A stretch of 64,000 bases of DNA from Methanosphaerula palustris E1-9c (GTDB taxonomy: Archaea; Halobacteriota; Methanomicrobia; Methanomicrobiales; Methanospirillaceae), in NCBI RefSeq assembly GCF_000021965.1, contig NC_011832.1:1922001-1986000 (forward strand), in the 5' to 3' direction. Under the pieces are notes generated by a model. That model searched no databases, had not been told where the DNA came from, and saw only the letters and a program-made list of their open reading frames with translations. Positions within the stretch are counted from its first letter, which is position 1. Each line of letters opens with the position of its first letter. This document shows, in pieces, positions 2,212 through 59,860 of the stretch. Made by a program: the position numbers and the translations under genes.

Positions 2212-5115
2212 GTTGTTCGGATCGGATGGCATCGCACCTTTTGTTCCCAGCAGAATCGACTGGATCAGTTCTTCCATCGCAGTGAGTTGAAACGGTTTGG
2301 GGAGAAGACCGACGAAACCATAGTCCAGATACGAGGCCATCACCGGGTCGTTGGAGTAACCGCTGCAGACGACGGCCCGCACCGCCCGATCAAGGGAGAG
2401 AAGACCTCTCATCGTCTCCTCACCACCCATCCCCCCGGGGACGATCAGGTCGAGAAAGACGATATCGAACGGCCGGTGCTGGATCATCGCCTCCTGATAG
2501 GCCTGAATCGCAGAGACCCCATCATCGGTGATCACCGGATCGTATCCACGCCGGGTGAGCCAGATTCTGAGGATATCGGTGATGGCCTCCTCATCATCCA
2601 TGATCAGGACACGGGTGCGGCCGGTGGGGAGGCGCGGGGCAAGGTCCAGCGGGCGGTCATGTCCGATCGGGATCATAAAGGTGACGATGGTCCCCCCGCC
2701 AGGACCAGAAGATACCTCGATCTCCCCCCCGTGCTTCTGGATCACCGAGCGGGCGAGGGGAAGTCCGAGTCCCGCTGCCCCGTCCTTGGTGGTGAAGTTG
2801 AGCTCAAAGATCTTCTTCTGGTTCTCGTCAGGGATCCCCTGACCGATGTCAATCACACGAATGCAGAGTTGAGGCTCCCTTTCTCCATCTGTTCTGTCGC
2901 AGAGTTCTGCAACAATAGTGATGGTGCCACCTCTGGGCATCGCCTCCATGGCATTCGTGATCAGTTGCTGCAAGGCCTCAACGATCTGATCCCGATCGAG
3001 GAATACCCTGGGGAGATCGTCACTGACCCGGTATTCGATCTGATACGATCCACGTCCATTACAGTTTTCAGCAGCCTCGTGGAGCAGCGGTTCAACCTCC
3101 TGGAAAGACCGGAGCGGCTCGCCGCCTCTGGAGAAGGTGAGCAGTTTGTTGGTCACCATCCTCGCCCTGGTGAGCTGGTCTTCAGCCTCGTCAAGTCGAC
3201 CGAGCAGAGCCTCCCGGTCATAGAGCATCGACCTGGCAAGTGTCAGGTTCCCAAGGATACTGGTGTGCAGGTTGTTGAACTGGTGAGCCAGTGAACCGGA
3301 CATCACCCCCAGAGTCTCGAGCTTTGCCAGTCTGAGCCGATCCTCCTCCATCTGATTCTCCTCACTGATATCTCTGGCCGCCACCAGCACTCCGATCAGG
3401 GTTCCCTCATAATCCCGAAAGAGTGATGCAGTACAGTGAAGTGGAATGATATGACCTTCACGATGACGGATACAAACTTCTGACTCCCTGCGAATACCGT
3501 TATCCAGCACCCCCTGACAGCAGTCTCTAATAAGGGCAGGCTCAGTGAAGTGCTCGGCGAGCCGGGTACCGATCATGTCCTGGCGAAGGAATCCAAGCAC
3601 CTGTTCAGAGGTCGCATTCAGATCCGTGATGATTCCATCCGGATCGACGATGATCAGCAGATCACGACTGATCTCGATCAGCGACCGGTTGTAGGCATTC
3701 ATATACCGTATCGTCTCTTCCACTCGTTTCCGCTCGGTGATGTCCCGGGCAATTCCCATCACTTCACCAAATCCCCCGTCAGGATTGATGAGGGGGATCA
3801 CCTCCACATCAAAGCAATGGTCAGAACCGGCGATCGTACCATCGACCTCAAAACGATTGGGGGTCCTGGTCTCGAGGACCATCTGAAACACAGTGGCGGC
3901 CGAAGAACTCTCCTCTGATGAAAAGAGCCCGGTGAACGTCTGCCCAAAAGACTCCCTGCTGGTCATCCTGAGCGTGGCCAGAGCGGTCGGATTCGCATAG
4001 GTGAGCCGGCCGTCCGTTCCAAAGAGGAAGATCAGGTCCTGCGCGGACTCTGCAAGGGTCCGGTACCGTTCTTCGCTCTCCCGGGTCGACTGATGGGCCA
4101 GTGAGAGTTCATCCAGCATCCCGTTGATCGCAGCTGAGAGGAGGGCCAGTTCGTCACTGCCGGCGATACCTTCTATTCGTGCATTCTCGCCATTCATCCT
4201 TATCGCCCTGACACCCGTAATCAGACGGTTCAACCGTGTAAGGACCGTCCGGTCCACAAATCCAAGGCTCAGAAACACGAAGAGGAGACTGATCAGCATC
4301 GTGGTCATGATGAAGGTTCTGGCACTTTCAGCCCCATTCAAAACGATCGTGCGTGGCTCCTGCACCCGGATCAGCAGCGATCCGGTGCCGGCGACGTCGG
4401 AGAGTGGCAGCACAGCAGCGACCTGGGAACTGTTCAGTGAAGAGATCGATACGCTATCCATCGAGACGGGACCGACTGCAGACCGGTTCTGAACCAGAGT
4501 GAAGGGAACACCAGATTGTTCTGCAAGACGGTTCACCTGTGCGGGGTCCAGATACTGCCCCATCATCATGACCCCTGGACTCGGACCGAGAAAGGAACTG
4601 GTCAGAACCGGTTGCGAAGCCAGCAGCATCGGCTGATCCCCGACCATCAGAATCCCGGTCTTCGACCCCTCCTCTGCAGTCACATTCAAAAAACCTGGCG
4701 TTGTTGAGATGGTATCGAGGAGGAGAGGAGAGAACTGCTCAAAAGTATCGCTGCTCAGGTTGAACCCCTGACCGTATAGCAACCGGTGATCATGATCATA
4801 GATCAACAGAACATTGATGTCGCAGGTTGTAAAGGTCTGGGAGATATTGTTTGTACTGACATAACTCCGATCAGTGGGATCGGTGACAAAGGTGAAGGTG
4901 TCATTCCATGCAGCCCGTTCCATCAGATGGGAGTTGATGGTGGAGAGATCGGCATCGACTGCTGCCCGGGCCTGACTCGCTTCGTGCTGCATCTGATCGG
5001 TCTCGAGGTTGACGTAGCCGTCCCGTATGACCGTCGCCGTAAAGAAGAGCATCACCACAAGCACAGAGATAAGGGTGACGGCGAGTGCAAGCAGGATCTT
5101 CTCACGGAGTTTCAT
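2185..5115 (-). CDS. Hybrid sensor histidine kinase (CHASE4-HAMP-PAS-PAS-HK-REC)
   Basis: This is a 976-residue membrane sensor. Order: membrane segment at about 7-28; an extracytoplasmic CHASE4-type domain (about 40-260, with ERAAWNDTFTFV); a second segment at about 265-290; HAMP; two PAS domains (from about 352 and 475); an H-box GSLAHQFNNLHTS with the phospho-acceptor His near 610; an HATPase with N-box LITNAMEAMP (about 717) and DIGQGIP/GAAGLGLPLA; and a C-terminal receiver with DDEE and acceptor Asp in IVFLDLIVPGG (about 890). It would sense an extracellular signal and pass phosphate His to Asp within one chain. I start at ATG 5113-5115, with AGGTGGAT upstream. The open frame extends 42 residues further without features. 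No output regulator is adjacent. Confidence 0.93.
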   Translation of the reverse strand: MKLREKILLALAVTLISVLVVMLFFTATVIRDGYVNLETDQMQHEASQARAAVDADLSTINSHLMERAAWNDTFTFVTDPTDRSYVSTNNISQTFTTCDINVLLIYDHDHRLLYGQGFNLSSDTFEQFSPLLLDTISTTPGFLNVTAEEGSKTGILMVGDQPMLLASQPVLTSSFLGPSPGVMMMGQYLDPAQVNRLAEQSGVPFTLVQNRSAVGPVSMDSVSISSLNSSQVAAVLPLSDVAGTGSLLIRVQEPRTIVLNGAESARTFIMTTMLISLLFVFLSLGFVDRTVLTRLNRLITGVRAIRMNGENARIEGIAGSDELALLSAAINGMLDELSLAHQSTRESEERYRTLAESAQDLIFLFGTDGRLTYANPTALATLRMTSRESFGQTFTGLFSSEESSSAATVFQMVLETRTPNRFEVDGTIAGSDHCFDVEVIPLINPDGGFGEVMGIARDITERKRVEETIRYMNAYNRSLIEISRDLLIIVDPDGIITDLNATSEQVLGFLRQDMIGTRLAEHFTEPALIRDCCQGVLDNGIRRESEVCIRHREGHIIPLHCTASLFRDYEGTLIGVLVAARDISEENQMEEDRLRLAKLETLGVMSGSLAHQFNNLHTSILGNLTLARSMLYDREALLGRLDEAEDQLTRARMVTNKLLTFSRGGEPLRSFQEVEPLLHEAAENCNGRGSYQIEYRVSDDLPRVFLDRDQIVEALQQLITNAMEAMPRGGTITIVAELCDRTDGEREPQLCIRVIDIGQGIPDENQKKIFELNFTTKDGAAGLGLPLARSVIQKHGGEIEVSSGPGGGTIVTFMIPIGHDRPLDLAPRLPTGRTRVLIMDDEEAITDILRIWLTRRGYDPVITDDGVSAIQAYQEAMIQHRPFDIVFLDLIVPGGMGGEETMRGLLSLDRAVRAVVCSGYSNDPVMASYLDYGFVGLLPKPFQLTAMEELIQSILLGTKGAMPSDPNNSVISDQPE

Positions 5116-8706: not shown

Positions 8707-10268
8707 GGTACCACCTTCTTCCTCCGGAGGGTTCTATTGTAGGTGATCGCACTCCGATGGGTCTCGTCCCGGATCTGCTGCAGAAAGAGCGAGGCCTTCG
8801 AGCGCCGGTCGAGCGGCATCGGCAGGGAGAGCCCTGGCATGAAGACCTCCTCCTCCCGCTTGGCGAGCGCGATCAGCGGAACCTTCAGCCCGAGGGATGC
8901 CAGTTCGTCGGCTGCCGCATGGAGCTGCCCCTTACCGCCGTCGACGACGATCAGGTCGGGCATCCGCTTCTGCTCCCGCTGAAGCCGGCTGTACCGCCGC
9001 CGGACCACCTCGGCGATGGCACGGAAGTCGTCGATCCCCTCGACCGTTCTGATCCGGAACTTCCGGTAGTTCTTCCGGTCGGGCCGGCCGTCACGGAACT
9101 GGACCATCACCCCGACCATCGCCGTTCCGCTCAGGTGGGAGATATCGAAGCACTCGATCACGCCGGGTGATGTCGGGAGGTGGAGCGCCTTTTTGAGTTC
9201 CTCCACCTTGATCCGATCGCCGAAGAACTGGGTCTCGATATTGGTTTTGACCAGGTCGAGCAGGTTCTTCCGGTCCCCCCGCTGCGGAACGGTGACCCCG
9301 ACCTTCTGCCCCTTCATCTCCCCGAGGAACTCTGCGATCGACCCGTCGACCTCGTGGGGGACGAGCACCTCCTTCGGGACCGGGTGATCGGCATAGTACT
9401 GGACGAGAAACTCATCCAGAAACCCCTGGTGGAACGGAAAGACGTACTCCTCCTTCTGACCGAGCGTCCCCCGGTAGATGTTGAAGAGGGCGAGGTAGAC
9501 CGTCCCGTCGACGACCAGGTAGTTGATGACGTCCTCATCATAGTTCTTCTGCCGCTGCACCCGCTGATGCTCCTGCAGCCGTTCGATCGCCTGGATCTGA
9601 TCGCGGATGACGAGGGCCTGCTCGAACTCCTCCGCCTCGGACCGGGCGGCCATCTCCTCCTTCAGGGCCGCGATCAGATCGTCCCCTTTCCCACTCAGCA
9701 CCGCCTCGGCCCGGCAGACCTGTTTTGCGTACTCCTCCCGGCTGATCGCACCGACACAGGGCCCCAGGCAGGACTGCATATGATACCGAAGGCATGCCCG
9801 CTTCTGCAGGCGCCGGCACGATCGGATCAGAAACGCGTGTTTGAGGGCACGGAGGAGGTAATCGCGCTCAAGGCCCGAGGTGAACGGACCGAAGTAGGTC
9901 CCCGGCTGGTCCCGGTCCCGCGCCACCACGAACCGGGGGAACTCCTCATCGGTCCTGAGGATATACGCATAGGTCTTCGAGTCCTTCAGGCTGATGTTGT
10001 ACTTCGGCCAGTGCCGCTTGATCAGGTTGTTCTCAAGGAGGAGCGCCTCGACCTCGTTGTTGGTGACGATGAACTGGATCGAGGCGATATGAGAGACCAG
10101 GGCCTCGGTCTTGGGATCGAGGTCGTGCCGCTGGAAGTAACTCGACACCCGCCGTTTCAGGTTCTTGGCCTTGCCGACATAGATGACCGTCCCGTCCACA
10201 TCATGGTACAGGTAGCAGCCCGGAGCCGTCGGAAGGGTGTTCAGATCGACAGGAGGCTCGACGGTCAT
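8703..10268 (-). CDS. uvrC: Excinuclease ABC subunit C, short form
   Basis: UvrC makes the two incisions flanking a lesion once UvrB is bound. The 521 residues show an N-terminal GIY-YIG nuclease (PTAPGCYLYHDVDGTVIYVGKAKNLKRR, split), a Cys cluster near CLRYHMQSCLGPCVG, a UVR motif at about 200-235 (EFEQALVIRDQIQAIE), and the RNase H-like domain (GVIECFDISHLSGTAMVG; PDLIVVDGGKGQLHAA). It ends shortly after HRSAITYNRTLRRKK, so the tandem helix-hairpin-helix domain that closes most bacterial UvrC proteins (about 600 residues) is absent. ATG 10266-10268 overlaps the uvrA stop by four bases. Confidence 0.97.
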   Translation of the reverse strand: MTVEPPVDLNTLPTAPGCYLYHDVDGTVIYVGKAKNLKRRVSSYFQRHDLDPKTEALVSHIASIQFIVTNNEVEALLLENNLIKRHWPKYNISLKDSKTYAYILRTDEEFPRFVVARDRDQPGTYFGPFTSGLERDYLLRALKHAFLIRSCRRLQKRACLRYHMQSCLGPCVGAISREEYAKQVCRAEAVLSGKGDDLIAALKEEMAARSEAEEFEQALVIRDQIQAIERLQEHQRVQRQKNYDEDVINYLVVDGTVYLALFNIYRGTLGQKEEYVFPFHQGFLDEFLVQYYADHPVPKEVLVPHEVDGSIAEFLGEMKGQKVGVTVPQRGDRKNLLDLVKTNIETQFFGDRIKVEELKKALHLPTSPGVIECFDISHLSGTAMVGVMVQFRDGRPDRKNYRKFRIRTVEGIDDFRAIAEVVRRRYSRLQREQKRMPDLIVVDGGKGQLHAAADELASLGLKVPLIALAKREEEVFMPGLSLPMPLDRRSKASLFLQQIRDETHRSAITYNRTLRRKKVVP

Positions 10269-45272: not shown

Positions 45273-46544
45273 TCAGAAGTTCGCACGCTGAGGATCAGCG
45301 ATCGCCTCTCTGCCCTGAACATTCCCCGAGATCTGTTCTGCAGAACGGAATGCATCCTTGATACCATAGATCAGGTACCGTCCGACCTGTTCCAAGAGCG
45401 AACCCTGAGACTGGGTCGGAACCATGGTCAGCGATGGCACTGTTGTACCCCGATCACTGACAGTAATTCCAGGAACCGGTACGATCGGCAGTGGAGAGAG
45501 AGAGGGAGTAGGCACCGTGGTCACCGTCGTCGGCGGCGCAAATGCCAGATGGTTATTTAAGGTACTATCAGGGTCCACATATCCCACATACCCGTTCGTC
45601 GTAAACCAGCACCTGCCTTCTGCGTCCATAAAGATCCGCTGCACATAGGAATCATCTCCGATTCCCTCACTCTTCTGATACCTGACCACGGCACGACCGT
45701 CCTGCCAGCCCACAAGCCCCCCGGGGGTTCCAATCCAGAGCATCCCGTCGGGTGAAGCCGCAACATCCGTGATCTCATGAATATCAGAGGCAAGGTCAGC
45801 AGGAGTGAGGATAGTCTGGTAGTGGCCGTCGGCAGAATAGTGGGCAATCATGCTCTGGTTGAATGCATACACACCGCCCAGCGGATCATACCTGACATGG
45901 TTCAGCCCGGTATACTTCTGCTCTGGATCGGAGACCCGTATGAACTGGACCGGGTCGGAATGATCGGGCACTTCCCAGAGTCCACCGTCAGCGGACGCCA
46001 GAATCAGAGCCCCGTTCTTCTCGTCCACCGCCATACTGTCCACCTCGTAACACCCGGGGCCATAATTTTTGAATGGTTGGAACCAGGTCCAGGCCCCATA
46101 GGCATAGCGGTACAGACCGGATGTCCCCACAGAAACCCACATCTCCTGATCCCACCGCTGGATATCATGGACACTCAGCGAGACGAAAGCCTGCGGATCA
46201 TCGAAGACCCTGTAGGTGACACCATCAAATCGCTGCATCCCATCAGGGTACCCCATCCAGAACCCTCCCTTATAATCATAGGCAAGGGCAACGACCATAT
46301 CGTCGAGGAGACCCTGAGTCCGGTTCACCCGGTTGGCATGATAGATCGTCCAGGTGCTGCCGTCAAAGGTAGAAATCCCATTATCTGTCGCCAGGATCAC
46401 CTGACCGTTCGGTCCGTCGACCATATCATAAACACGGTCTGAAGAGACCGAACCTGCACCTGGGGCGAAGAGATGCACTGCTCCAGAAACAGGTACGACC
46501 AAAAAAATAAAGATGATCAGAAGAAGTATCAGACCTCTTGACAC
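45273..46544 (-). CDS. Secreted beta-propeller (two-component regulator propeller type), coupled to che operon
   Basis: This 423-residue exported protein has the signal GLILLLIIFIFLVVPVSGAVH, then a propeller of sensor-type blades: PNGQVILATDNGISTFDGSTW, KGGFWMGYPDGMQRFDGVTY, DQEMWVSVGTSGLYRYA and GMLWIGTPGGLVGWQDGR (the last at about 280). A Thr/Pro linker and a short C-terminal helix follow. Such blades form the ligand-sensing part of hybrid kinases, but here there is no kinase or membrane anchor. The GTG start at 46542-46544 lies inside cheD (16-base overlap), so it is translated with the chemotaxis genes. A role as an external sensing or binding component is inference. Confidence 0.85.
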   Translation of the reverse strand: MSRGLILLLIIFIFLVVPVSGAVHLFAPGAGSVSSDRVYDMVDGPNGQVILATDNGISTFDGSTWTIYHANRVNRTQGLLDDMVVALAYDYKGGFWMGYPDGMQRFDGVTYRVFDDPQAFVSLSVHDIQRWDQEMWVSVGTSGLYRYAYGAWTWFQPFKNYGPGCYEVDSMAVDEKNGALILASADGGLWEVPDHSDPVQFIRVSDPEQKYTGLNHVRYDPLGGVYAFNQSMIAHYSADGHYQTILTPADLASDIHEITDVAASPDGMLWIGTPGGLVGWQDGRAVVRYQKSEGIGDDSYVQRIFMDAEGRCWFTTNGYVGYVDPDSTLNNHLAFAPPTTVTTVPTPSLSPLPIVPVPGITVSDRGTTVPSLTMVPTQSQGSLLEQVGRYLIYGIKDAFRSAEQISGNVQGREAIADPQRANF

Positions 46545-51117: not shown

Positions 51118-51918
51118 TTATTGTTTTGTCGCGTCAGAGATGTAGCGTATCCCCTTTGTGGTCAGTTTAACCTCTCTTCTGACCTCCACAACTTCAGCAA
51201 TATTCAGATTGATCAGTTTGTCATAGATCAAATCCAGTTTTTTATTGTTGATCGAGAGCATGTTGATGATCGCGGACGAATCCATGCCACTGTATACCAG
51301 CATCGCCACCTGTTGATCATACTCGTCCAGTTCATCACCACGCATATCCATCGACTTGGTGGCATCGGTCAGGAAGTTGAAGAGGGTCTGGAGGGTTGAG
51401 ACCGGACAGAGCACAAAACTGGTCACCACCTCACCGGCATCGACATGATCGATCTTGATCACATCAGTCTGTTTACCCTGGACATCGCGCTTGGTCAACT
51501 GAATATCAGCAACATCATTGAGGGGGATACTGACCTGTTTCTGGGCGCTATCGAACCAGATACCAGTCTTTACAACGATGATTGAGCCCTTCTCCCACTG
51601 TGCATCCTTGACCATCACCCCGCCCCTGATTGCAGGAGAGAGAAAGTATGCTGCAAGACGGTAGGCACTGCAACTACTCAGAATGAGCCGTTTCATTACC
51701 CGGAGAACCTTATCGACAGAGAGGATCGGAAGTGTCACATCAGGCGTATCACTGGTGCTGATGAGGAGCAGATTCTTCCTTTCTTCAAGGTTTATGATAT
51801 TTTTATAGAGCACTTCCCTATTCACCGGTTTGGGGATCACCAGGCGGTCCTCACCGATACCAATCTTTACGACCAACCACGTTCCATTATACTCAATCTT
51901 AACAGGTACTTCCTTCAT
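51118..51918 (-). CDS. cheF: Archaeal chemotaxis adaptor CheF
   Basis: CheF is an archaea-specific adaptor that binds phospho-CheY and the archaellum switch proteins. The 266 residues match the family: KIEYNGTWLVVKIGIGEDRL at the start, repeated PH-like sheets (GGVMVKDAQWEKGSIIVVKT; VSIPLNDVADIQLTKRDVQG), and the C-terminal winged-helix part (QQVAMLVYSGMDSSAIINML; VRREVKLTTKGIRYIS). ATG 51916-51918 follows GAGGG. It lies between the arl genes and the cheY operon, which fits its linking role. Confidence 0.9.
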   Translation of the reverse strand: MKEVPVKIEYNGTWLVVKIGIGEDRLVIPKPVNREVLYKNIINLEERKNLLLISTSDTPDVTLPILSVDKVLRVMKRLILSSCSAYRLAAYFLSPAIRGGVMVKDAQWEKGSIIVVKTGIWFDSAQKQVSIPLNDVADIQLTKRDVQGKQTDVIKIDHVDAGEVVTSFVLCPVSTLQTLFNFLTDATKSMDMRGDELDEYDQQVAMLVYSGMDSSAIINMLSINNKKLDLIYDKLINLNIAEVVEVRREVKLTTKGIRYISDATKQ

Positions 51919-51981: not shown

Positions 51982-53118
51982 CTATGGCTTCGAAATCCCA
52001 TGTCTTTTCTTCTCCGGTTTCACTTCAGGCATACCAATCATCTGCATCAACCCTTCGAGATCTGTGACCAGATCTTCAGAGCTGACCTTCACATCACGCA
52101 GGTCCCGGAGGATCGACATGTCAGCCTCAACCTTCACAGACTTGACATCCGAAGCGAGCAGACTGAGCATTTCGTTATCCCCACCCATTCCTCCTGCAAA
52201 AGCAGCCAGATCTGGTTCATCCTTTGGAGGTTCATCCGGAAGGGCATCCTGCGGAAGCGGAAATTGAGGAATATCCGGGGTCGCTGTAGTTGAACTGGCG
52301 GCCGCATCTGGAGATTCATCCGGCACGTCAGGGACACTCAGGTCTGCTTCATCCAATCCGTCAAGCCCTGATAGCTGAATCTCATCCAGATCCACCTCAT
52401 CAAGACTTGCCAGTTCATTATCGATCTGGTCGATCCCTTCAAGATCAGTGAACTCCTCGAGATCAGAGGCATTTTCACTGAGGATCGCATCGGCACCCTG
52501 CAGTTCTGGCTCTGCAGGAGGGGTGACAGCCTCCATATCCAGTGAGAGATCCTCGGCCTTTTCCGGTTTCTCTTCAGGGACATCGAGGCTATCAAGGTCA
52601 TCGAGGAGATCGGTCTGCAGTTCGTCATCTGATAAAGACAGGAACGGATCCTCTGGCTTCCCACCACCACCACGAGAAGGTGCCGGGGCTGAAATAGATG
52701 ATTTGTCTACCGATCTTCCCTTCACTACCTCCTCTTTCTTCCCTCGGGAGAAGAGACCCCCCATCTTCTCCTCTTTCTTACGAGGAACCCGTTCTGGGAT
52801 CAGTTCCTTCAGAGATGAACGCATCCGTGCGAAGAGACCAGAACCACCCTTATCCTTGGTCTTCGAAGGAGCCACCTCAGTCGACCCCTTCTTTCCTTTT
52901 TCAGGCTTTACAGACTTCTTCTTTCCACCCTTTTTGAACCGCTCTCCAAACCGAATGAAGTCCTCTGCTGTCAGCGCTCCGGTTACAAAGAGGAGGATCA
53001 CACCAATCAGGATCAGCACGGGGAGGAGTTGCATCAGGGGCAGGTCGACCCCAATCATCAGTAACCCGATGACAAGGGTTACTACAAAAAGAAGAAGCCT
53101 CCGAACGTCCTCTCTCAT
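51982..53118 (-). CDS. Membrane-anchored acidic protein in the arl-che cluster
   Basis: I do not recognise this 378-residue protein. It has two N-terminal membrane helices (LLLFVVTLVIGLLMIGVDLP; LLPVLILIGVILLFVTGAL) and a strongly basic region (about 60-130, KKGGKKKSVKPEKGKKG). A long, very acidic Leu/Asp/Glu-rich region follows (about 150-300). The C-terminus has predicted helices (EMLSLLASDVKSVKVEADMS; EDLVTDLEGLMQMIG). ATG overlaps the arlJ stop by four bases and cheF follows 63 bases later, so it is made with the motor. Its position next to ArlJ, charge and membrane anchor suggest a cytoplasmic motor-associated or switch-complex role. That is inference only. Confidence 0.8.
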   Translation of the reverse strand: MREDVRRLLLFVVTLVIGLLMIGVDLPLMQLLPVLILIGVILLFVTGALTAEDFIRFGERFKKGGKKKSVKPEKGKKGSTEVAPSKTKDKGGSGLFARMRSSLKELIPERVPRKKEEKMGGLFSRGKKEEVVKGRSVDKSSISAPAPSRGGGGKPEDPFLSLSDDELQTDLLDDLDSLDVPEEKPEKAEDLSLDMEAVTPPAEPELQGADAILSENASDLEEFTDLEGIDQIDNELASLDEVDLDEIQLSGLDGLDEADLSVPDVPDESPDAAASSTTATPDIPQFPLPQDALPDEPPKDEPDLAAFAGGMGGDNEMLSLLASDVKSVKVEADMSILRDLRDVKVSSEDLVTDLEGLMQMIGMPEVKPEKKRHGISKP

Positions 53119-54752
53119 GTCGTATTCGCCGCCGTCGCAGAGTTAGCGATATTGGTCAGCACATCAACACTGAAGAACATCCCTACCAGGGTCGGTAGGA
53201 CCAGGAAGATCAATCCCGATAGGGTGAAGAAGATTGCAATATACAGATAATACATATACCGGTCCCCACCCCACACAATCTTTGCAGCTAAAACATTGGA
53301 TATCGACAGGATCACCATGATGATCACGACATAGTTGGTCATCACGTCCTTTGGAAAGTTGACAAACATATTGAGAGAGCCTGCGAGAAAAGCGTTTCCC
53401 CCCATACCAGTATCACCCCCAGAAGCAGCAGCAGCATCAGCAAACTTATTCATCATCGAGGTGATGGCCGTCGTCAGGGTCAGCATGATATCGAAGAGGG
53501 CTACCAGAATCCCGACCATCATCACGTGCATCGGGATCAACAGAATGATAAAACTCTTGGCCAGCATATCCCGCTTCTGCCGGAGGAGCACCATGTTCTG
53601 CATCGAATTGCCGACCACCTTTCCAATCTCACCAGCCGGCCCCCCGGTCGCGACCGTATCACGAAAGATATTCAGATACTTATAGATCAGGTTCGATCCA
53701 CTCTCACCGATGAACCGTTCCCAGATCTGCTCCTCATCAAGGCCGAGGTTCATCTTGGAGTGAACTGACCGAACCAGCGGTTCGAGCGCGATCAGCGATT
53801 TCTTGTCCACCTGGTCCAGCGCAATCGGCAGAGTGGCCCCCTGCCCCTCCATCACAGACCCGAGCGACCGGATAAAGATTGAAAAATCGTCATCACGCTG
53901 GGAGATATTGGTGTCGTCGATATACCCGATGATCCCCAAAGGACCCATCATCAACCCGATGAAGAGACAGACAAAACCGGCATTCACCCCGAATGCCACC
54001 ATGATCAGAGAGATGACAGCGACCAGCGGAACCATAATCCGCTCAATCTTCCTGATCGAGATCTGCTCCTTGGAACGCCAGGTATCAAGTCCATGTGTCT
54101 TCGGATCATCGGGGACGGATTTATACATCAACACAATCCCAAAGATACTGATCCCGAGCGTCAGCGCGTACGACATATTCAGGGTCATATCGATGCCGGT
54201 CGGCGCATAGATCGCCACCGAGATCATCATGGTGACAGCGACCACAGCACTTGAGAGAAGCATCGCGATGTAGGCATCCCCCCACTTCTTCAGCAGTTCA
54301 AATCCCTGTTCAATGTTGCTGACATAGACCATTCTGGTCGTGACCAGTTCATTGCTGAGAAACTCCTCATCCGGCACCCCAGAATCGATCGAGTTGGAGA
54401 AACGGTTGAAGAGACTCTGGATCAGGGGATTTTTCACCCGATCGGCGGTGATCTCCAGGGACTCCTTATAACTGAACCCCCACCCCATCGTGAGGATATT
54501 GACCTTTTTGATGTATTTTGAGGAGGCATACTCGCTCCGCTCGCTTGCACTGGCAAAGAGTTCCGGCCGCGACGCGCGGGCGAGGGCAAGGGAGGTCATA
54601 TAGGTGATCATATACAGAAGGTCTGCGGGCATCTGCTTGTTCTCAATGATCCCCGCATAATAATCCTGAAATGATTTGACGATCCCGGCAAAGGCACTCT
54701 CTTTTGGCTTATCCTCCTCGGATATCGCCCCGCTTATCGCCACCTCTGCCAT
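53115..54752 (-). CDS. arlJ: Archaellum membrane platform protein ArlJ (FlaJ)
   Basis: ArlJ is the polytopic membrane platform on which ArlI acts to assemble and rotate the archaellum. The 545 residues contain two T2SSF-type cytoplasmic domains (ESLEITADRVKNPLIQSLF region and the second with IFIRSLGSVMEGQGATLPIA). There are about nine hydrophobic helices, including MLLSSAVVAVTMMISVAIYA and VVAVISLIMVAFGVNAGF. It starts at ATG 54750-54752 with AGGGG upstream, two bases after arlI. Its stop overlaps the next gene. Confidence 0.95.
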   Translation of the reverse strand: MAEVAISGAISEEDKPKESAFAGIVKSFQDYYAGIIENKQMPADLLYMITYMTSLALARASRPELFASASERSEYASSKYIKKVNILTMGWGFSYKESLEITADRVKNPLIQSLFNRFSNSIDSGVPDEEFLSNELVTTRMVYVSNIEQGFELLKKWGDAYIAMLLSSAVVAVTMMISVAIYAPTGIDMTLNMSYALTLGISIFGIVLMYKSVPDDPKTHGLDTWRSKEQISIRKIERIMVPLVAVISLIMVAFGVNAGFVCLFIGLMMGPLGIIGYIDDTNISQRDDDFSIFIRSLGSVMEGQGATLPIALDQVDKKSLIALEPLVRSVHSKMNLGLDEEQIWERFIGESGSNLIYKYLNIFRDTVATGGPAGEIGKVVGNSMQNMVLLRQKRDMLAKSFIILLIPMHVMMVGILVALFDIMLTLTTAITSMMNKFADAAAASGGDTGMGGNAFLAGSLNMFVNFPKDVMTNYVVIIMVILSISNVLAAKIVWGGDRYMYYLYIAIFFTLSGLIFLVLPTLVGMFFSVDVLTNIANSATAANTT

Positions 54753-54754
54753 CG

Positions 54755-56611
54755 TCAGACCCCTATCGCCAGCAACCCCTGCTTCTTGATCTTGGTGATC
54801 ATATGGAACAGATCCCAGAACTGGGTATACCCTGCCTGATGGAGTCTCTCAAGGATCTTTGCCCGTTTTTCGACCTCCAGATAGATCTCTGCACGTCGAT
54901 TCTCGGGCAACCCGAGCATCGTTGCGATCTTCTCTTCCAGCAGGTACGAAGAACCCTTTCCTGACCAGGTGAATGTATCAGTGACCGGTTCCCAGCCGAA
55001 CATCTGCACAAATGAGAAACCCTGCGTCTCCGGATTAAAGCCGACCAGTTCATTGATACTGAGGACCCGCCTGACGGTTTCGCCGGTCGGACGCCTCACC
55101 GCACTCTGGATGATCACCAGGTTCAGGTTGTCCACATGCGACTTGGGGATGTTGATCGGGTCACTGCAGAGCCGCTGGATCAACTTCTCGACGCTGGCCG
55201 CGTGAAAGGTGGACATCACCGGGTGACCGGTCTGCATCGCACCAAACGCGACTGACCCCTCCGAACCTCTGATCTCACCGACCAGGATCTGGTTCGGACG
55301 CTGACGGAGGGCGGCCTTGAGGAGATCGAACATGGTGACCGAACCATCGTCACTCTCCCCTCCCTTGGCTTTAGCAACCTCGCGGGTCCAGTTCCTGTGC
55401 GGGACCGTCAGTTCTGGCGTGTCCTCGATCGTCACGATCTTGTTCTCCGGAGGAATAAACGTCGTGATCGCATTCAGGGTCGTGGTCTTCCCACTGGCAG
55501 TCTCGCCACTGACGAAGAGGGACATTCCATACTCGATGCAGATCCAGAGATAAGCCGCCATATTATAGTCACAGGCATTCGAAGCTATCACATCCATGAT
55601 AGAAAGCGGCACTTCATTCACCTTACGAATCGTGAAGTTCGAACCGTGCCGGCTCACTGCAGTTCCATAGACGATGTTGATACGGGAACCATCCAACAGG
55701 GTAGCATCTACAATCGGGTTCCGATAGGTGATCGGATGCTTGATCTTCTCTGCCATCTTGATCACAAACTGGTCGAGTTCATCAGAACGGGTGAACTCAA
55801 TCACTGACTTCAAACCCTTGAAGACCTTGTGCTCGATGAAGATCGGACCGACCCCGTTACAGGTGATATCTTCGATATTCGAGTCTGAAAGGAACGGTTG
55901 GAGCACCCCCATATCGATCTTATCCCGTGCCATCAGGTACTCCACCGCCTTGTACTCGATGGGGGTCAGGATCACCCTTCCATCCGGGGTCTGAGGCACC
56001 TTGACCTGCGACATCCGATCGATCATCTTCTTCTTCGCAGTGAAATCGGTGTTCAGAAAGTCCTTGACCTTCTCAAGACCCCCCTTCTGAACATCCTCCC
56101 CGCTCGACTCTTCGAGTATCTCACCGGGACGCCGGATCGCCGTCACCTTGGTGAGCAGATTCTTGAGGACAATCCGACGCTCCTCCTGAGAGGAGGGGTC
56201 GTTCTCAAGGGCATCGATCAGATCGATCAGCCTGAGTTCGATGGGTGGAACAAATTTGTTCACATTGTGCAGGAACGACGGCTCGATGGGGATATAGAAG
56301 TTTCGGACATCATTCGGATCCTGTAGAATATGGACAAAGGTGGTTTCATTGACAGGATAGATGATGTTCGGGTTCTTCATCGATCGAAGGTCCTTCTTCA
56401 ACTCGGAGAAGAAGAGAGGAATCCCATAGGTGTTCACCGGCAGGATATGCAGGTACTCGAGCAGGTGTGGAGCTCCTTGCACGTATTCCCGGGCATTCGC
56501 AGGGAGCATCCGATAGAGCGCACTGGACTCGAGATTGGTGGACCAATCAATTCCTTCATCGACAACTTCAGGCTTGAATGGCAGCTTCGCTGCCATTGTC
56601 ATGGTTGCCAT
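54755..56611 (-). CDS. arlI: Archaellum motor ATPase ArlI (FlaI)
   Basis: This hexameric secretion-type ATPase powers both archaellin export and rotation. The 618 residues include the N-terminal arch with LPVNTYGIPLFFSELKKDLR, KHPITYRNPIVDATLLDGSRI, Walker A SGETASGKTTTLNAITTFI (about 370-382), VTIEDTPELTVPHRNW (Asp box), and Walker B ILVGEIRGSEGSVAFGAMQTGHPVMSTFHA (split), then the C-terminal helices. It starts at ATG 56609-56611 after AAGGTG, two bases after arlH. Confidence 0.97.
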   Translation of the reverse strand: MATMTMAAKLPFKPEVVDEGIDWSTNLESSALYRMLPANAREYVQGAPHLLEYLHILPVNTYGIPLFFSELKKDLRSMKNPNIIYPVNETTFVHILQDPNDVRNFYIPIEPSFLHNVNKFVPPIELRLIDLIDALENDPSSQEERRIVLKNLLTKVTAIRRPGEILEESSGEDVQKGGLEKVKDFLNTDFTAKKKMIDRMSQVKVPQTPDGRVILTPIEYKAVEYLMARDKIDMGVLQPFLSDSNIEDITCNGVGPIFIEHKVFKGLKSVIEFTRSDELDQFVIKMAEKIKHPITYRNPIVDATLLDGSRINIVYGTAVSRHGSNFTIRKVNEVPLSIMDVIASNACDYNMAAYLWICIEYGMSLFVSGETASGKTTTLNAITTFIPPENKIVTIEDTPELTVPHRNWTREVAKAKGGESDDGSVTMFDLLKAALRQRPNQILVGEIRGSEGSVAFGAMQTGHPVMSTFHAASVEKLIQRLCSDPINIPKSHVDNLNLVIIQSAVRRPTGETVRRVLSINELVGFNPETQGFSFVQMFGWEPVTDTFTWSGKGSSYLLEEKIATMLGLPENRRAEIYLEVEKRAKILERLHQAGYTQFWDLFHMITKIKKQGLLAIGV

Positions 56612-56613
56612 GC

Positions 56614-57348
56614 CTACACCTTCGCGAAACTCATCGGAATGATCTTCATACCATATCCTGGATGGACCTCGAACGAGACCAGGTTCCCCGTCGTCTTCCG
56701 TGCACCCCGAACCTTGTTCACCTCGAGGACCATCACATATTTTGTCCCAAGGAGGGACTTCTTCATGAACAGGTGCGCATCAGAGATGGACCTGATCCGT
56801 ACCAGCGACTCCTCCTCAAAGGCATAGGTGTGGAGGGTGATCAGGATCGTCTTGCCATGGTCGACCAGGTTCTTGCAATTGGTGAAGAAGGTCAAAATCG
56901 TACCGGTATCGGCGTACTCACTGAAGAGGGTCAGGGAGTCGATGATGATCACATCTGCCCTGCTGTTCTTGATGAACAGGATCAGATTGCTCAGGAGCCC
57001 CGACATCTCCGTCTCCTTCCATTCAAATCCTACCACATTTAAGGGGAAGACTCGCAGGTATCCCCAGGCATAATATTCAGAGATGTCCAGACTCATCGAT
57101 TCCATCTGTTTGAGGAAACTCTTGGTGGTATTCTCTGTCGTGAAGAGATCGACACACTTCGACTGTTTCAGAGCGCCCCAGATGATCTGCTGAGTCAGTA
57201 CGCTCTTGCCGGTATCGTTCTCACCCTCGATCAGAGTCAGGGACTCCAGCGGAAGACCGTCTGCGATCTTCTTATCAAGTTCGTTGTTCCCCGTGGAGAG
57301 GATCTTATTATCTTCCCCTCCCAGAATATCTCCGATTCCACCACCCAT
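56614..57348 (-). CDS. arlH: Archaellum ATP-binding protein ArlH (FlaH)
   Basis: ArlH is a KaiC-like RecA-fold protein that binds ATP without much turnover and regulates ArlI. The 244 residues begin with an unusual 22-residue Gly/Asp-rich head (GGGIGDILGGEDNKILSTGN). They continue with LIEGENDTGKSVLTQQIIW (Walker A, about 38-55) and ADVIIIDSLTLFSEYA (Walker B). The start is ATG 57346-57348, 13 bases after arlF. Confidence 0.95.
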   Translation of the reverse strand: MGGGIGDILGGEDNKILSTGNNELDKKIADGLPLESLTLIEGENDTGKSVLTQQIIWGALKQSKCVDLFTTENTTKSFLKQMESMSLDISEYYAWGYLRVFPLNVVGFEWKETEMSGLLSNLILFIKNSRADVIIIDSLTLFSEYADTGTILTFFTNCKNLVDHGKTILITLHTYAFEEESLVRIRSISDAHLFMKKSLLGTKYVMVLEVNKVRGARKTTGNLVSFEVHPGYGMKIIPMSFAKV

Positions 57349-57361
57349 AGTTTTCCCCCAA

Positions 57362-57835
57362 TTACACTAACACGGTTGAATAGACACCGTTCGGCGTGAT
57401 CACCTGTGCCCAGACAGGTCTGTACGTGTCGGTGACCGACAGGGTCAGCACCTCTCCCGGGTCGAGTTGTCCGGGATGGACGTAATCCGGGACGATCTGT
57501 ATATTCTGCCAGGTCTGACTTGAGAGAGCGCCGGTAGTGAAATGATGATACAGCGGTTCCCCAACACCATCCGATGTTATCACATCCATATGAGTAAAAT
57601 CGCTGATGGGTTCCCCCCCGGTGTTGGTCACGTTCAGATAGACCGTGTTGTCGACCACCTGGTCTATTGAAAGGTTGATCATCGTTCTCATACGCGCCTC
57701 CTGCAACTGCCCCATATCACCCTGGGCGGAGGTGACGGTCTCTGCAGTCATAATCACGGATCCCACCAGTACATAAGCGACATACACAAGAAGCATCACA
57801 CCTACTACCGCACCAATCAGTTCACCTACTGCCAC
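57362..57835 (-). CDS. arlF: Archaellum stator protein ArlF (FlaF)
   Basis: The 157 residues have one N-terminal membrane helix (GELIGAVVGVMLLVYVAYVLVG) and an extracytoplasmic beta-sandwich (DQVVDNTVYLNVTNTGGEPI; GQLDPGEVLTLSVTDTYRP). ArlF and ArlG form the stator that holds the motor to the S-layer. The start is unusual: no ATG is available. I place it at GTG 57833-57835, three bases after GGTGAT at the arlG stop. GTG 57838 is the alternative. ATG 57889 would lie inside arlG. Confidence 0.85.
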   Translation of the reverse strand: MAVGELIGAVVGVMLLVYVAYVLVGSVIMTAETVTSAQGDMGQLQEARMRTMINLSIDQVVDNTVYLNVTNTGGEPISDFTHMDVITSDGVGEPLYHHFTTGALSSQTWQNIQIVPDYVHPGQLDPGEVLTLSVTDTYRPVWAQVITPNGVYSTVLV

Positions 57836-57839
57836 CACA

Positions 57840-58328
57840 TCACCCCGCGGAGAACTGCTCTGTCCTGGAAACCCCGTCAGGCAGAACAAACTGGAAGTAC
57901 ATCATATCCCCTTTGCTGACCGGGCCATAGTTTATGTCGACTCTGAGGGTCTCACCAGGATCCCAGTACTCGTTCGTGTTATCCTCAACCTGATAATTCC
58001 AGGGTTTCGGAGCCGTAAGCGTTGCATTATAGGTCATCCGTGAGAAATCTCCGACCTCTCCAAAGAAGAGATCAGACTTTGCAATATCCGAGTCGGGTAG
58101 GTTTGAAGACCCGATGTTCTTCATCCAGATCGTCGCTTCTCCATCGGTGTTGCAGTAGGTCGTCACCACCCGAAAGTCAGTCCTCATCCGTTGATCAGAG
58201 TCATGGGAAGAAGAAGCGAAGGTACCGGCCATCGTATAGATCACCGGAAAGATTGCGTTGATCAGAACACCGGCCGCAATGATTGAGGTGATCAGGAACA
58301 TCGCGGTGGTGAAGGTCTCACTTGACAT
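57840..58328 (-). CDS. arlG: Archaellum stator protein ArlG (FlaG)
   Basis: The 162 residues open SSETFTTAMFLITSIIAAGV, a single membrane helix. The external domain reads DQRMRTDFRVVTTYCNTDGE, ATIWMKNIGSSNLPDSDI, then a C-terminal DPGETLRVDINYG and DGVSRTEQFSAG. The KNIGSSNL element is the usual ArlG mark that separates it from ArlF. It lies three bases after the arlD/E-type gene. It should pair with ArlF at the tip of the stator. Confidence 0.87.
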   Translation of the reverse strand: MSSETFTTAMFLITSIIAAGVLINAIFPVIYTMAGTFASSSHDSDQRMRTDFRVVTTYCNTDGEATIWMKNIGSSNLPDSDIAKSDLFFGEVGDFSRMTYNATLTAPKPWNYQVEDNTNEYWDPGETLRVDINYGPVSKGDMMYFQFVLPDGVSRTEQFSAG

Positions 58329-58331
58329 AAA

Positions 58332-59270
58332 TTATATCCTGTCAAGCAGGTTTACCCACTCATCGCCCTTTATCCGGTCCCTGGCTCCCGGTTCATCACT
58401 TGCAAGCCCCTGCCGCTGTTCCATCAGCACCTCAATCATATCACGATCAAGGGTTATATCATTCGGCGAAAGAATCCTGTTTAAAACATAGAGCTCGGCC
58501 ACATATTCGCCGGGATCGATCTCATGCACCTCACCGAGGACAGCCGGCATCAACCGGGCGATCTCGATGACCTCGGCACAGGACTCCTGTGAAATGTACC
58601 CCATCGATCGGTACGACTGGAGCATACTCTCAAGCCGGTCATGGCCGTACTTCTTCACCGACCGGTTGGTCCACTTGAAGAGGCGATATGCCTTCTGGAG
58701 GCGCAGTTTTTCAGGAAGTGACGAAGAGTCCGGGATTGGAGGCACGGCCGGCATCGCCGGGAGTTGTAGTGGGGGCGCAGCAGCCGACTCCTGTGCCAGT
58801 TGCGAACGCAAAGCAGCGAGTAAACGCTCATCAGCCGCAGAGAACTCACCTTTCTTCTCCTTGCGGCGTGATCTGGTCGGACGCTCCTCCTCGAAATCAT
58901 CTTCCTCGTCCTCCTCGTCTTCATCGTCCCGCTTCCGCCGTCCCTTCCTCTCTTTGGTCTTCTCTGATGATGAATCTAAAGTAGACTCGCGAGCTTTCAG
59001 CGCACTCTCGCGAGCGTCCAGAGCAGACTCATGGGCGTCATTGGCCTCTTCCTTGAGATTCTGAGAATTATCCTGACTGTTGGCGGTACCGCCGACCAGT
59101 GTGAATGGATTATCGATATCATTCATACGTTCCCGTATATCGATAAGGAGCCGTTTGATCGAGGTCTTGATCAGATCAACCTCTCGCTCCAGGCTCTGCA
59201 GTTTTACCTCTGGATCATCCTCGGAAGCTGCTGTGAGTATCTGGTCAACCTGCGCCTGATTAACCACCAT
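58332..59270 (-). CDS. ArlD/E-like archaellum switch protein
   Basis: The 312 residues form the cytoplasmic ring component that receives the CheF/CheY signal. An N-terminal coiled coil (LQSLEREVDLIKTSIKRLL) is followed by heptad-like repeats (ALDARESALKAREST). A highly charged block (DDEDEEDEEDDFEEERP then KEKK) and an Ala/Pro linker come next. The conserved ArlD/E C-terminal domain reads FKWTNRSVKKYGHDRLESML, EVHEIDPGEYVAELYVLNR and DITLDRDMIEVLMEQ. It is the only gene of the arlC/D/E group here. I start at ATG 59268-59270; the frame runs 14 codons further upstream. It heads the arl operon. Confidence 0.88.
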   Translation of the reverse strand: MVVNQAQVDQILTAASEDDPEVKLQSLEREVDLIKTSIKRLLIDIRERMNDIDNPFTLVGGTANSQDNSQNLKEEANDAHESALDARESALKARESTLDSSSEKTKERKGRRKRDDEDEEDEEDDFEEERPTRSRRKEKKGEFSAADERLLAALRSQLAQESAAAPPLQLPAMPAVPPIPDSSSLPEKLRLQKAYRLFKWTNRSVKKYGHDRLESMLQSYRSMGYISQESCAEVIEIARLMPAVLGEVHEIDPGEYVAELYVLNRILSPNDITLDRDMIEVLMEQRQGLASDEPGARDRIKGDEWVNLLDRI

Positions 59271-59860
59271 GCAAGTTACTATATATGGGTTACAGTTAAT
59301 AAATACATTCATTCAGGAAAACAGACAATTCCCAATTTATATCCTATTTTGGTTGCAGAATAACGAGAGATCGGCATTCTACCGGGTACCGGATCTTTGA
59401 AGTACCGGCCCACCGATCAAAAATTTTATCGAATGCGAATCTTTCCACCCTCCTGTTCGCCTGATCGCGCAGTGACCAGGTGTGATTCTGAACAAAAAAA
59501 CACTCATTTTATCCATCCAACCACCATCATCGAACATACCACCACAGAAAGAAACAGTGTGCATACCCCGGTGCACTCATCCACCTTCTGGTTCAGGATA
59601 CACCGGATAATAATCCAGGGCCCATTTTTTGACTGGAGATCTCCGATCTGATTATTCTTGTGATCTCGCAGTACCCCCAATAAAGACATCCCTACCACCA
59701 TCTCCCAGTAGGAGAGGTGCTGGCATCAGGTGAGAGACCATTATATATACCAGTGCCACCGATCGACAGACTGGATGGTACACCAGTTTTGAAAGTTGAA
59801 GAGCGTGAAGAGGCTGACAAAGGAGAGGAGAAGAAAGCCGGTAGGACCAGGCGTCTACCC
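59271..59860. other. Divergent region between arl operon and pyruvate kinase
   Basis: About 590 bases. On the left, minus-strand TATA-like words (ATTTATTAA near 59299-59308 and TATATA near 59282-59287) are the likely arl promoter. On the right is the pyruvate kinase promoter (59741-59749). Between them I see AT-rich sequence, a palindromic CGGGTACCGG near 59390 and no convincing gene. The frame from 59717 belongs to the 5' leader of pyruvate kinase. Confidence 0.4.
59741..59749 (+). promoter_or_regulatory. TATA box of pyruvate kinase
   Basis: TTATATATA at 59741-59749 is near-consensus. A start about 25 bases downstream, near 59770, leaves a leader of about 90 bases before ATG 59861, long for an archaeal mRNA. 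Confidence 0.5.

Follow-up and report, generated by a model that had tools for sequence, protein, structure and literature searches.

The unnamed gene X, lying between arlJ and cheF, probably encodes an overlooked motor part of the archaellum, with counterparts at the corresponding position in well over 100 archaeal genomes. The simplest reading is that its product would be anchored in the membrane and serve the cytoplasmic motor of 'arl2'-type archaella as a structural tether or scaffold, as the euryarchaeal ArlC, ArlD and ArlE proteins have no membrane anchor (PMC8978795); judging from sequence and prediction, we put this at about even odds (roughly 0.5).

Genomic context of X

The window, a stretch of 64,000 nucleotides, comes from a genome of one contig (2,922,917 bases). 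X is an ORF of 378 residues on the minus strand (51982..53118), which starts with ATG at 53118 and shares four bases with the arlJ gene ending at 53115. Upstream, on the same strand, lie arlJ (53115..54752; NF004703, 759.8 bits, 1.1e-228), the motor ATPase gene arlI (54755..56611; NF058587, 725 bits), arlH (56614..57348; assigned from its KaiC-type ATPase domain and position), two archaellin-fold/stator genes and an arlD/E-like gene. The two stator genes are arlF-like (57362..57889, minus strand; a weak Pilin_N match and its position) and arlG-like (57840..58328, minus strand; archaellin-type domain, PF01917, 8.9e-12), and the arlD/E-like gene (58332..59312, minus strand) matches PF04659 at 0.0012 with 19.2 bits, short of the curated cut-off of 21 bits. 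Downstream, cheF (51118..51918, minus strand; PF04283, 1.2e-15) is followed by cheY, cheB, cheA, cheC and cheD. The four-base overlap and the position at the meeting point of motor and chemotaxis genes, both described earlier in a sequence-only reading, are thus borne out by the ORF boundaries and by the families of the two flanking proteins. The arlG-like gene stands ahead of the other stator gene; the resulting order, G-F-H-I-J, is that of the fla2/arl2 arrangement described by Desmond et al. 2007 (PMC1914349).

In addition, a secreted repeat protein is encoded after cheD (45273-46544). At three other loci (L089, L103 and L109) a protein of similar appearance comes after X, and in these genera CheF was not detected downstream within the fetched sequence.

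Overall layout and predicted structure of X

Protein X consists of three parts in a conserved layout: a membrane anchor, a flexible acidic linker and, at the C-terminus, a helical hairpin. The anchor of the window protein is formed by two helices, helix 1 (residues 8-24; 53047..53097, minus strand), which is conserved in Methanomicrobiales, and helix 2 (residues 28-48; 52975..53037, minus strand). Hydropathy places hydrophobic segments at about residues 8-24 and 29-48, and AlphaFold2 predicts helices at 3-23 and 28-46 with a pLDDT of ~90, so that the two membrane helices proposed earlier are supported by both methods. The proposed basic collar was recovered as a lysine-rich stretch (residues 51-135; 52714..52968, minus strand), with K/R-rich residues spanning about 51-135 in the sequence scan, followed by an acidic region at about 154-310 (52189..52659, minus strand) within a middle part that AlphaFold2 predicts to be largely disordered. 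The acidic stretch had been taken for a long tail; the acidity holds, but the stretch is a linker, and the protein ends in a conserved hairpin missed in that reading. This hairpin (residues 314-361; 52036..52179, minus strand) is composed of two predicted helices, 314-341 and 347-361, with a pLDDT of ~60-84, and carries a LLRDLK-type motif. It is the most widely conserved portion of the family in alignments and profile searches, and its Arg338 is invariant throughout alignment A1, which comprises 43 X members from Methanomicrobiales only.

Outside Methanomicrobiales, those relatives in which the anchor is retained span the membrane with one helix, compared to two in the window protein; the Archaeoglobus homologue is predicted by AlphaFold2 to adopt the same layout with a single membrane helix. 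The anchor and the acidic disordered linker are both present in the window protein, and the anchor is missing in some Methanosarcinaceae copies.

Family searches

Searches of Pfam, NCBIfam and the PDB sequences gave no named family for the window protein; its relatives showed no consistent named family either, their Pfam and NCBIfam matches being scattered over membrane or low-complexity entries. Foldseek returned nothing meaningful, and literature searches found no paper describing the gene, for which an arCOG number may exist. A single-sequence scan of genome contigs with X gave no match, as the sequence diverges too fast for such a scan; profiles were therefore needed.

Two paralogy relationships were considered and rejected. 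An origin as an ArlC/D/E paralogue is contradicted by hhalign against the ArlDE proteins of the loci (probability 0.1-0.2); the window protein has no FlaC_arch or Arch_fla_DE match, and among the 43 aligned members only one has such a match, at E=0.066. A CheF paralogue was likewise dismissed, with no PF04283 match and an hhalign probability of 0.1-0.3. Altogether, hhalign found X unlike ArlDE, CheF, ArlF, ArlG, ArlH, CheC and CheD.

Distribution of X in Methanomicrobiales

The sample of this order comprised 150 genomes. A single-sequence X search matched 110 of them at E<=0.1, the A1 profile found X in 111 at E<=1e-3, and an ArlJ search matched 112. Two matches were set aside: the A1 match in G122 (E=7.8e-5, no ArlJ match), which is confined to A1 positions 21-159 in the membrane and basic region and was considered probably spurious, and the ArlJ match in G139 (7.5e-11), judged to be a TadC-type paralogue. 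Of the 111 genomes in which ArlJ is genuine, 110 thus have X; the remaining one is G090, whose ArlJ match, a fragment at the end of a short contig, was not usable either. By contrast, X is absent from all 39 Methanomicrobiales genomes without a true ArlJ, the partial G122 match being disregarded; homologues in archaea without arl genes, named in the sequence-only reading as evidence that would speak against a motor role, were therefore not seen among these relatives. The arl-less genomes fall in several genera, including ones in which other species retain both ArlJ and X, and this implies several joint losses of arl and X.

The 80 loci fetched for Methanomicrobiales hardly deviate from the arrangement ArlDE-(G,F)-H-I-J-X-CheF-CheY-CheB-CheA-CheC-CheD; X is present at every locus with enough sequence, lying between arlJ and cheF in nearly all loci read. 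The ORFs in this slot mostly encode 341-506 residues, and most of them overlap the end of arlJ or begin no more than a few tens of bases from it. The ORF is therefore genuine, far beyond chance, as related ORFs occupy the same slot in Methanomicrobiales arl loci; an ORF artefact was rejected on account of the family's presence across Methanomicrobiales genomes. The co-occurrence search suggested earlier thus detects X in all but one of the true-ArlJ genomes, and this near-perfect co-occurrence, together with the fixed position, supports the earlier proposal of an additional motor part.

Two disrupted copies were observed in the order. In G001 (genus g13; L088:7447-10640), an IS element that carries a transposase-like ORF of 388 residues (8846-10012, minus strand) interrupts X, a natural disruption beside which the arl genes and cheF are still present; in G017 (L063), the X copy is frameshifted. 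Such broken copies, together with the fast divergence of the family (20-32% identity to the window protein), would suit a protein with no role in the archaellum that merely travels with the operon. This reading is hardly credible, given the retention of X in nearly every arl genome of the order, its absence from the sampled arl-less relatives and its conservation at the same locus across families. Nevertheless, the interrupted copy in G001 indicates that X can be lost while the arl genes stay, which counts against the tether.

Distribution of X beyond the order

The A1 profile also matched ORFs of ~200-400 residues elsewhere in the phylum, with a best value of 1e-10 and essentially via its last ~50 positions; these matches constitute the independent detection of X outside Methanomicrobiales. 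When their loci were read, the matched genes were found directly after arlJ, apart from that in L189. The family thus extends to Archaeoglobaceae, Methanosarcinaceae, 'Ca. Methanoliparum' and a Methanocella-like family, and the suggestion of a lineage-specific part is wrong. Profile-profile comparison joined the Methanomicrobiales, Archaeoglobi and cheF-linked Methanosarcinaceae proteins with a probability of 95-98% (E 5e-8 to 5e-12).

A second profile, A3, was built from the C-terminal hairpin alone (44 rows, the window sequence among them, which it matches at 1.3e-18 in G000). Run on the 14,012 six-frame ORFs from all fetched loci, it gave 162 matches at E<0.01, 158 of them post-ArlJ, a test that measures specificity rather than independent sensitivity, as many of the matched ORFs or their close relatives are themselves A3 rows. 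The remaining four are recognisable X copies or fragments: a copy whose neighbouring ArlJ is cut (L177), the 3' half of the gene interrupted by the IS element (L088), and the matches in L189 and L190. The L190 match (4186-4458, G372) is a duplicated C-terminal fragment of X in an arl/che locus, lying ~12 kb from arlJ, beyond cheD. Genome-wide, A3 matched 107 of the 394 genomes of the phylum at E<=1e-3, and wherever the loci were read or the coordinates compared with those of ArlJ, the match was in the arl locus, normally as the gene after arlJ; in G117, X is split across two contigs.

Some loci depart from the common pattern. In G278, an Archaeoglobaceae genome (g65) of a single contig (2,076,931 bp, 99% complete), X lies between arlH and arlI (L189). 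The short copies of Methanosarcinaceae g93 (L201 and L203) have no membrane helix despite a significant hairpin match, so anchoring is not universal, which counts against the tether. Also against it are two of the distant loci L231-L238, namely those in which chemotaxis genes lie close to ArlJ: neither has X, a CheF-like ORF directly following ArlJ in L233, and a 324-aa HEAT-repeat-like ORF and then CheF in L235.

Both the arlH-arlI position in a complete genome and the close or overlapping starts with arlJ in the listed loci would agree with an assembly factor or regulator, serving ArlJ insertion or the ArlI/ArlH ATPases from outside the finished motor, and the layout of X resembles that of disordered membrane-bound recruiters. 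Nothing specific speaks against such a role, and by sequence it looks no different from the tether; we regard it as unlikely.

Relationship of X to chemotaxis

The gene's position between arlJ and cheF in Methanomicrobiales raises the possibility of a switch adaptor, whose disordered acidic part or hairpin would recruit CheF or CheY-P to the motor. In line with this, a K-I-D-x-x-L-D motif occurs in the linker of 40 of 53 non-redundant Methanomicrobiales proteins, compared to 1.5 expected by shuffling, and the K/E-I-D-x-x-L-D/E form, exemplified by L061, L069, L183, L186 and L189, resembles the CheY-binding EIDALL motif of FliM (PMC9126983). However, the motif is missing from the window protein and present in the X of G278, a genome in which neither CheF nor CheA was matched. 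The same holds for CheF and CheA in G155 and G164 (84-86% complete) among the 39 X-bearing genomes outside Methanomicrobiales that were checked, and several further genomes of this set lack a CheF match and have CheA. In Archaeoglobi, moreover, CheF is several kb away from X. As the complete G278 has the arl genes and X without CheF or CheA, X is not simply a switch or chemotaxis part; a part of chemotaxis alone was rejected, the earlier idea of a switch-linked part is not supported, and an adaptor function appears quite unlikely.

Proposed role of X in the archaellum motor

We propose that X, by translational coupling to ArlJ, would be inserted beside the platform. From the positive-inside rule, both termini and the long part of the protein are predicted to be cytosolic (N-in/C-in). 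Through the flexible linker, the hairpin would then extend to a part of the cytosolic motor, such as the hexamers of ArlI/ArlH or the ring of the ArlD/E-like protein, and keep that part close to the membrane, a function also proposed for ArlX in Thermoproteota; a binding partner within the cytosolic motor is accordingly presumed.

The same disordered, predicted cytosolic arm could instead tether motors to the polar cap or position them at the pole. The cap is a hallmark of Euryarchaeota and is closely associated with the motor, although structures have resolved no connection between the two (PMC8978795). Against this, Thermococcales possess polar caps, and X sits inside the arl locus wherever it was read; we therefore hold a cap tether to be very unlikely.

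The archaellum has been described with a short parts list encoded by loci of 7-11 genes (PMC12488501). An extra gene fixed beside arlJ in Methanomicrobiales, Archaeoglobi and Methanosarcinaceae would add an overlooked part to the motor and bear on how Euryarchaeota hold the cytosolic motor at the membrane. Its role is testable in Methanosarcina, which offers both genetics and an X copy.

Comparison with other post-ArlJ proteins and known archaellum components

An acidic post-arlJ protein with a similar C-terminal layout is also found in second Methanosarcina loci, ANME-1 (Methanophagales) and Chloroflexota. Hhalign comparisons involving these sets gave probabilities of 0.6-42% (E 3e-4 to 0.1), and those in which ANME-1 and Chloroflexota were set against the three firmly joined groups, or against one another, gave 2.5-28% (E 6e-4 to 0.02), compared to E values of 0.02-0.8 for unrelated control proteins of the same loci. 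With profile comparison below 50% probability, the ANME-1, Chloroflexota and most second-locus Methanosarcina proteins were not counted as homologues, and their sequences are no more than suggestive of a relationship to X. The ANME-1 and Chloroflexota proteins are like X in position, acidity and a C-terminal helical-looking segment.

The ANME-1-type proteins (L215-L230 and L243) are soluble and very acidic, with 116-189 residues; several carry a WWLQKG-like motif, and a CheY-like response-regulator ORF often follows. In several archaellated Chloroflexota (L306-L323), arlJ is followed by a gene for an acidic protein, and six of the eight proteins examined have a hydrophobic helix at the N-terminus. 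Conceivably, a post-ArlJ acidic protein is a general component of arl2-type archaella, ANME-1 and Chloroflexota included, that supplies the euryarchaeal cytosolic ring with the membrane anchor it had seemed to lack, a tentative extension that we rather doubt.

Compared to CheF (DUF439), X is likewise archaea-specific and arl/che-linked, and the two are neighbours in Methanomicrobiales, but they are separate families and X is found where CheF is absent. ArlC/D/E (FlaC/D/E) of Euryarchaeota are encoded in the same locus and, like the cytosolic part of X, are motor-associated; they differ in being unanchored, and the window has a separate ArlD/E-like gene.

Another close parallel is ArlX (FlaX) of Thermoproteota, which is monotopic in the membrane and has a soluble part that assembles into rings via a coiled coil (PMC4307647). 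The two were compared by description. ArlX has a single N-terminal membrane helix, whereas the window protein has two and the Archaeoglobi homologue one; for X, AlphaFold2 predicts a disordered linker and a short hairpin with no long coiled coil, and its gene comes after arlJ. Nevertheless, both are membrane-anchored cytoplasmic archaellum proteins of arl2-type clusters, and they would share the proposed task of keeping the cytosolic motor at the membrane.
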